Both the position numbers and the translations under genes were made by a program. Positions 45,564-46,519 of a stretch of DNA of 64,000 nt are shown piece by piece (the first letter of the stretch is position 1; each line of letters begins with the position of its first letter). The stretch lies in assembly GCA_029979265.1 (NCBI GenBank), contig JAPOHW010000001.1, positions 1 to 64,000 of the forward strand. Direction: 5' to 3'. The notes beneath the pieces are model-generated. The model was not told where the DNA came from and did not search any database. It saw only the letters and a list, made by a program, of their open reading frames with translations. Source of the stretch: Actinomycetota bacterium (lineage in GTDB: Bacteria > Actinomycetota > Acidimicrobiia > Acidimicrobiales > Aldehydirespiratoraceae).

Positions 45564-46519
45564 GGTCGGAGATGCTCGGGGATGACGAGCCCCATCTCGG
45601 CGGCGAGCCCCGTCGTGGCTGCTGCGACCGGTACCCCGATCGCATCCAGCAACCGATTCATCATTTCGAAGTTGGCGGCCACCATCACAATCCGGTCGGC
45701 GGTGTCGCGACCGAGGCGAAGCTCGGCACGCACCCGGGCGTCCGGGTACTCGTCCACATCGCGCAGGACACAGGCGTCGACGAGGGCGCGGATGTCGTTG
45801 CCGGCGGGCACCCCACAGGTACCGCACCCCTCCTTGATCACGCGCGTATGGAGTTCTTGGCCTGTCTCATGGAGGCTCGCACGGAGCATTCCCGCATGGG
45901 ACAGCAGTCAAAAGAAGCACTCGTTGAGGTACGACGTTCGGGCTGCAGCCAACTCGATCTGGGCGCGAGTGGCGCCGTCGCGCACGGCGAGTGGGTCTCC
46001 CATGTCGTCGATCGACAGGTAGAGCGTGTCGTGGACATCGAATTGCAGTTCGAGCCCACCCGGGATCGCAGTGAGGGCAGTCAGCGGATGCGCTGTCCCC
46101 ACGGTCGGCACCCACCCCTGATCGATCGCGGCGTCGGGGACCACCGCTCGGCTCGGCAGGCCGTCGAGCGGTACCGGCAGGACAGGGTCGTCCAGCGCAA
46201 GCCCGAATGCCGCCGTGTCGAGAGCGGTCCAGCGGGCGACGATCGAGAGGACTTCGACGTAGGCCTCGGCCCGAAGACCGGCATCGGCCCACGCAGCGAT
46301 GTCGTCGGGTCGGATCGTCCAGGCCTCGGTTGCGATTCGGCGGCTTGCGTCGGCCACGGCGTTCGGAAGGTCGGCGGCTCCGGGCCGGCCTGCCCGGGCG
46401 GCGCGAGCCTCGCGAGCGATCGCAACCTGCTCCACCCCGGTGAACCAGATCCCAGGCGCAGCCAGCGCCGCCGTCTGGCGGGCCACGAGGGCGTCGAATG
46501 CGGTGAGAAGAGCTGTCAC
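45560..46519 (-). CDS. Candidate selenoprotein: AhpD/carboxymuconolactone decarboxylase (CMD)-family protein with in-frame UGA (Sec204) at 45908-45910
   Basis: ORFs 46519..45908 and 45889..45560 are in the same frame (offset 630 nt) and separated only by TGA plus six sense codons. Readthrough gives ...TRAQIELAAARTSYLNECFF(U)LLSHAGMLRASLHETGQEL...RIVMVAANFEMMNRLLDAIGVPV..., a C-x-x-U-x-x-x-H motif matching AhpD C-x-x-C-x-x-x-H. GTG start at 46519, 4 nt after the upstream gene's stop; the 3' end overlaps the next gene's ATG. Confidence 0.8.
45872..45893 (-). promoter_or_regulatory. bSECIS-like stem-loop downstream of the in-frame UGA
   Basis: RNA: GGG-AAU-GCUC-CGUGC-GAGC-CUC. 4-bp GC-rich upper stem, 5-nt apical loop containing GU at nt +26/+27 after UGA, bulge AAU (bulged U) on the 5' side, lower GGG/CUC stem. 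Confidence 0.6.

Follow-up and report, generated by a model that had tools for sequence, protein, structure and literature searches.

The interrupted reading frame and its surroundings

The minus strand of the window, i.e., the entire 64,000-nucleotide stretch of DNA that was analysed, contains a reading frame for 319 amino acids that extends from a GTG start at 46519 to a TGA stop (45560–46519), and its sole interruption is the in-frame UGA codon at 45910–45908. Decoded as selenocysteine (Sec), this codon provides residue 204 and completes the motif CFFU (residues 201–204), which agrees with the CxxU (or CxxC) criterion of the NCBIfam family NF041238, "alkylhydroperoxidase-related (seleno)protein". 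The read-through protein scores 195.2 bits against the family model (cut-off 175), and differs from most NF041238 homologs, which have CFYU, in carrying CFFU. Judging from homology and conservation, the product would be an AhpD-like protein in which CFFU serves as a redox motif of the CxxU type.

On the same strand, the gene is preceded by a gene for a quinone-oxidoreductase-like zinc-binding dehydrogenase (46524–47501; Pfam PF00107 and PF08240), and followed by one for a SnoaL-like protein (45138–45563; Pfam PF13577), a conserved neighbour whose ATG shares an ATGA overlap with the selenoprotein stop. The segment 43559–47501 on the minus strand comprises, in order, the quinone oxidoreductase, the Sec-containing AhpD-like protein, the SnoaL-like protein and an AMP-dependent ligase, and is followed by GAPDH. 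This order is kept at two homologous loci (L019 and L020), and also in the part that is visible at two others (L053 and L054). The conserved gene order and the ATGA overlap suggest that the segment is an operon serving a shared pathway.

Standard ORF calling divides the selenoprotein frame into two pieces, 45908–46678 and 45560–45889. The second piece begins at an ATG at 45889 that overlaps the 5′ edge of the hairpin described below; a standard gene caller would start the downstream half there, and automatic annotation is likely to split the gene in two. The same division agrees with a reading in which the UGA acts as a normal stop codon or arose by nonsense mutation, leaving two genes or a pseudogene, and in which the downstream hairpin is coincidental. 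That explanation is extremely improbable. UGA occupies the Sec site of the window gene in 80 distinct aligned homologs and in 44 more, a total of about 124 distinct sequences whose homology runs over the full length and through the UGA; its conservation at the same codon rules out that the gene is split or carries a nonsense mutation. Also against an ordinary stop, CxxC forms with TGC (Cys) at this codon exist, two of them in the first alignment (L021 and L090), and the Sec machinery of the genome is complete.

The latter consists of SelA, SelB, SelD and a tRNA-Sec with anticodon UCA, all encoded in the genome from which the window derives (G000, 94% complete). ARAGORN gave no tRNA within the window or near selA, and the tRNA-Sec was found elsewhere on the same contig as the window. 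Two further NF041238 selenoprotein genes are present in this genome, L042 (G000:C27:22065-23054) and L064 (G000:C20:18093-19067), and the three genes have one UGA apiece. Together with the full Sec machinery, this identifies the source as a Sec-decoding bacterium, whose closest relatives with names are Acidimicrobiales MAGs. The SelD frame of the genome also holds one in-frame UGA.

Members of NF041238 above the cut-off are found in 74 of 396 genomes of the class, and among the members listed, nearly all have exactly one in-frame TGA. One member, G921:C18:83529-84458, is listed with two in-frame TGA codons, and may be a damaged copy or a form with two Sec residues. A wider draw from the phylum yielded copies in 4 of 399 genomes, only from the window's own class.

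The core hairpin and its conservation

The RNA 3′ of the UGA reads CUGCUGUCCCAUGCGGGAAUGCUCCGUGCGAGCCUCC, identical to the quotation in the sequence-only reading from which this analysis started. That reading had proposed a 4-bp GCUC/GAGC stem closed by a CGUGC loop with an apical GU, in a layout that follows the rules for bacterial SECIS (bSECIS) elements. The hairpin occupies 45875–45887 on the minus strand, with GCUC at 45887–45884, the loop CGUGC at 45883–45879, and GAGC at 45878–45875. Counting the first base after the UGA as +1, these segments correspond to +21 to +24, +25 to +29, and +30 to +33, so the stem begins 20 nt 3′ of the UGA and the distance from UGA to loop is 24 nt. The GU dinucleotide at loop positions 2–3 (45881–45882, +26/+27) is the presumed SelB contact. 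Stem, loop and GU are confirmed by the sequence, and location in the coding region after the UGA, a loop with GU, and the 24-nt spacing all fit the bacterial rules. The 3.3-Mb genome has three perfect matches to the pattern TGA-N20-GCTCNGKNNGAGY, and these lie at the three NF041238 genes.

The alignment of homologs has no gaps in the hairpin region, and RNAalifold applied to the 80 UGA homologs returns a consensus that consists of the same four pairs and no other structure. GCUC/GAGC is paired in 98.8% of cells, and the bottom pair of the stem tolerates GU. The apical loop has the conserved 5-nt form N-G-(U/G)-N-N: in all 80 homologs the G (column 29) is invariant and the next base (column 30) is U or G.

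These bases lie within codons, and they could be conserved on account of the amino acids they encode (MLR-S) or of codon bias, without any RNA element. Leu at +8 and Ser at +11, counted in codons after Sec, are indeed strongly conserved. We scored how far sequences with the same amino acid also share the codon in each of 294 gene columns (gene mean 0.04, sd 0.16); the scores compare columns within the same genes, where common ancestry acts on every column alike. The stem-forming columns +10, +8 and +11 occupy ranks 1–3 (excess 1.00, 0.96, and 0.85), and the loop codon +9 has rank 6. Although Leu and Ser each have six codons, codon +8 is CTC in 82 of 83 sequences, against a CTC share of 45% among the Leu codons of these genes, and codon +11 is AGC or AGT in 81 of 83, against 32% of Ser codons in the gene family. 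At +10 the residue varies (Ala, Glu, Ser, Leu, Val, or Trp), but G is the last base of this codon in each of the 80 UGA genes. Codon +9 is CGT, AGT, CGG, AGG or GGT in nearly all sequences, which retains the loop G followed by U or G. Synonymous re-coding of the genes lowers the mean pair probability to 0.035, compared with 0.56 in the real homologs. An origin of the conserved bases in protein sequence or codon bias is therefore very hard to maintain, the more so as the hairpin and loop signature is gone from L090, L173, and L175, three of the four Cys homologs. The fourth, L021, keeps it, as expected for a recent Sec-to-Cys change.

Outside the hairpin, the Phe codon at position −2 relative to the Sec UGA is TTC in 77 of the 80 sequences with Phe there, which ranks this codon fourth for constraint within the gene (z 4.4).

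The second set of 44 distinct UGA homologs gives a similar picture, with CTC in 43 of 44, a codon +10 ending in G in 44 of 44, and T or G as the third base of codon +9 in all 44. Four pairs are kept in 39 of these sequences and three pairs in the remaining 5. In L145, TTC and AAC replace CTC and AGC, and the C–G pair is converted to U–A, a single genuine compensatory event that involves two amino-acid changes; a C–A intermediate at the C–G pair is seen in L055, L179, and L180. The comparison across UGA homologs, which the sequence-only reading had named as a check, consequently finds a conserved structure with one compensatory change. The stem is near-invariant, so that clear covariation amounts to this one double change, and the homologs are not mutually independent.

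Lower stem, bulge and larger folds

Two further elements of the original proposal did not survive the comparison. A lower stem between GGG (45891–45893) and CUC (45872–45874) on the minus strand, helix 18–20/37–39, is paired in 42.9% of cells across the 80 homologs, and the structure is no better than with shuffled columns. Since no lower stem is conserved below it, the AAU on the 5′ side of the upper stem is not supported as a defined bulge, nor is the analogy to the bulged U above the lower stem of Escherichia coli fdhF. The U 5′ of the stem sits in a Met/Leu/Phe codon position, and its conservation is not creditable to the RNA. A register of GGG/CUC with a 2-nt bulge gave slightly raised but weak scores, and its covariation was equalled by slid controls.

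In terms of energy, the hairpin is inconspicuous. It has −4.1 kcal/mol by itself, −4.8 kcal/mol with the lower stem added, and −18.4 kcal/mol with an extended stem. A 42-nt fold (−9.3 kcal/mol) contains the hairpin together with a separate UCCC/GGGA stem, and is indistinguishable from shuffled sequences (z = 0.13). Within 54 nt of the window sequence, the pairs of the hairpin form with a mean probability of 0.19. A 57-nt segment folds with a minimum free energy (MFE) of −19.2 kcal/mol (z = −1.3 against shuffles) into an extended stem in which the apex has moved to UGC/GCG. Neither the 42-nt nor the 57-nt fold shows a thermodynamic excess over shuffles for the hairpin in the window sequence by itself, and the element is ambiguous with respect to the MFE criterion of the bSECIS model (≤ −7.5 kcal/mol), which is reached only via apex-shifted folds or non-conserved stems. 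As the hairpin is not exceptional by energy, the case for it rests on conservation, which goes well beyond chance expectation.

The 57-nt MFE structure raises the alternative that Sec decoding is genuine, but directed by a larger, window-specific fold (CUGUC/GACAG and CAUG/CAUG with the UGC/GCG apex), which spans 45862–45904 on the minus strand and surrounds the hairpin. Its predicted stability is in its favour. The homologs do not conserve this fold, however: the outer CUGUC/GACAG helix is paired in 36.8% of cells among the 80 homologs, and the structure performs no better than shuffles; the corresponding value for GCUC/GAGC, which is also under codon constraint, is 98.8%. We rejected the extended fold as a candidate, and consider it very unlikely to be the functional SECIS. 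A scan of the window and the selA region gave no Rfam family at the gathering threshold, which is expected because the element is short.

Interpretation and comparison with known systems

We conclude, with a probability of roughly 95%, that the hairpin is a compact bSECIS that directs Sec insertion in the AhpD-like CxxU protein; binding of SelB and the insertion itself are predicted from homology and conservation. The assignment as bSECIS made in the sequence-only reading is upheld by the genome's Sec machinery, the NF041238 membership, the UGA in about 124 homologs, and the codon constraint on the stem and the apical GU/GG. In the mechanism that we envisage, SelB, carrying Sec-tRNA-Sec, would bind the hairpin, which begins 20 nt further 3′, as a ribosome arrives at the UGA. 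SelB would then deliver selenocysteine, termination by release factor 2 would be avoided, and the resulting product would be the AhpD-like protein bearing the CFFU (CxxU) redox motif.

All five UGA sites examined in the genome bear an N-G-U-N-N pentaloop. The loops of the two other NF041238 genes are GGUCU (L042) and CGUGC (L064). In the SelD gene (L119, G000:C14:6213-7139) a GGCGCA-GGUCG-UGCGCC hairpin with a 6-bp stem follows 32 nt after the UGA, and in a TIGR01926-type AhpD-like gene (L121, G000:C12:46843-47280) a GGCGC-GGUCU-GCGCC hairpin follows after 18 nt; the stems of both are given as 6 bp with NGUNN pentaloops, GGUC(U/G). These features fit a single SelB that recognises the loop at all five sites. 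The closing C–G pair of the NF041238 hairpin joins two wobble positions that are able to change together synonymously, yet it is C–G in 80 of 80 homologs. This invariance may indicate that individual stem bases are read, but shared descent and stability could likewise play a part in it. A more general rule, by which the SECIS of Acidimicrobiia is reduced to a 13-nt hairpin with no conserved lower stem, and SelB reads the stem bases as well as the loop, is put forward tentatively and is less probable than not.

Within the class, many short UGA genes for AhpD-like proteins (L125–L143) have, on inspection, a CUC/GAG stem that closes a 6-nt CG-(G/U) loop at the homologous position in the protein. 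As part of the same tentative reading, the similar stem and the shared position suggest that the element of this second AhpD-like selenoprotein branch and the window hairpin may go back to a common ancestral element.

The general picture of Sec insertion is unchanged by the window element. The analysis confirms as a selenoprotein gene a frame that would be cut in two by standard annotation, and gives the exact SECIS extent from clean comparative evidence, in that codon constraint covers 13 nt and little beyond. The homologs also form a large natural collection on which the recognition preferences of a non-proteobacterial SelB can be tested.

The E. coli fdhF SECIS has a small apical loop with G-U, a short stem, and a lower stem with a bulged U; its loop, GGUCU, is the same as that of L042. 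The window hairpin is similar with respect to the G-U apical loop, the short stem, and the distance from the UGA, but lacks a conserved lower stem and a defined bulged U, which are traits of fdhF and not general features of bSECIS elements. A published bSECIS model specifies a loop of 3–9 nt, an upper stem of 4–16 bp, a G among the first two bases of the loop, and a spacing of 16–37 (PMC13188914). The window hairpin resembles the model in its location directly after the UGA, the 4-bp upper stem, the 24-nt spacing, and the loop CGUGC, which agrees with the loop criterion, and differs in that its upper stem has the minimum length of the model.

Within the literature library searched, no paper united "Acidimicrobi" with selenoprotein and selenocysteine. 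NF041238 itself is described as "AhpD-related protein (hypothetical protein 1, Sargasso Sea metagenome)" with a CxxU motif, citing a 2005 study (PMC13188914). That study of the Sargasso Sea selenoproteome reported SECIS-like stem-loops for all new selenoproteins, and its Fig. 3 shows the one of hypothetical protein 1 (PMC1088965). The window gene belongs to this family by its curated score and shares the CxxU motif and a bacterial SECIS-like hairpin, but has CFFUL in place of the name-giving CFYUT and belongs to an LLSH sub-branch. Because the family is already published as selenoproteins with predicted bSECIS elements, the window gene is a well-supported but ordinary example of it.
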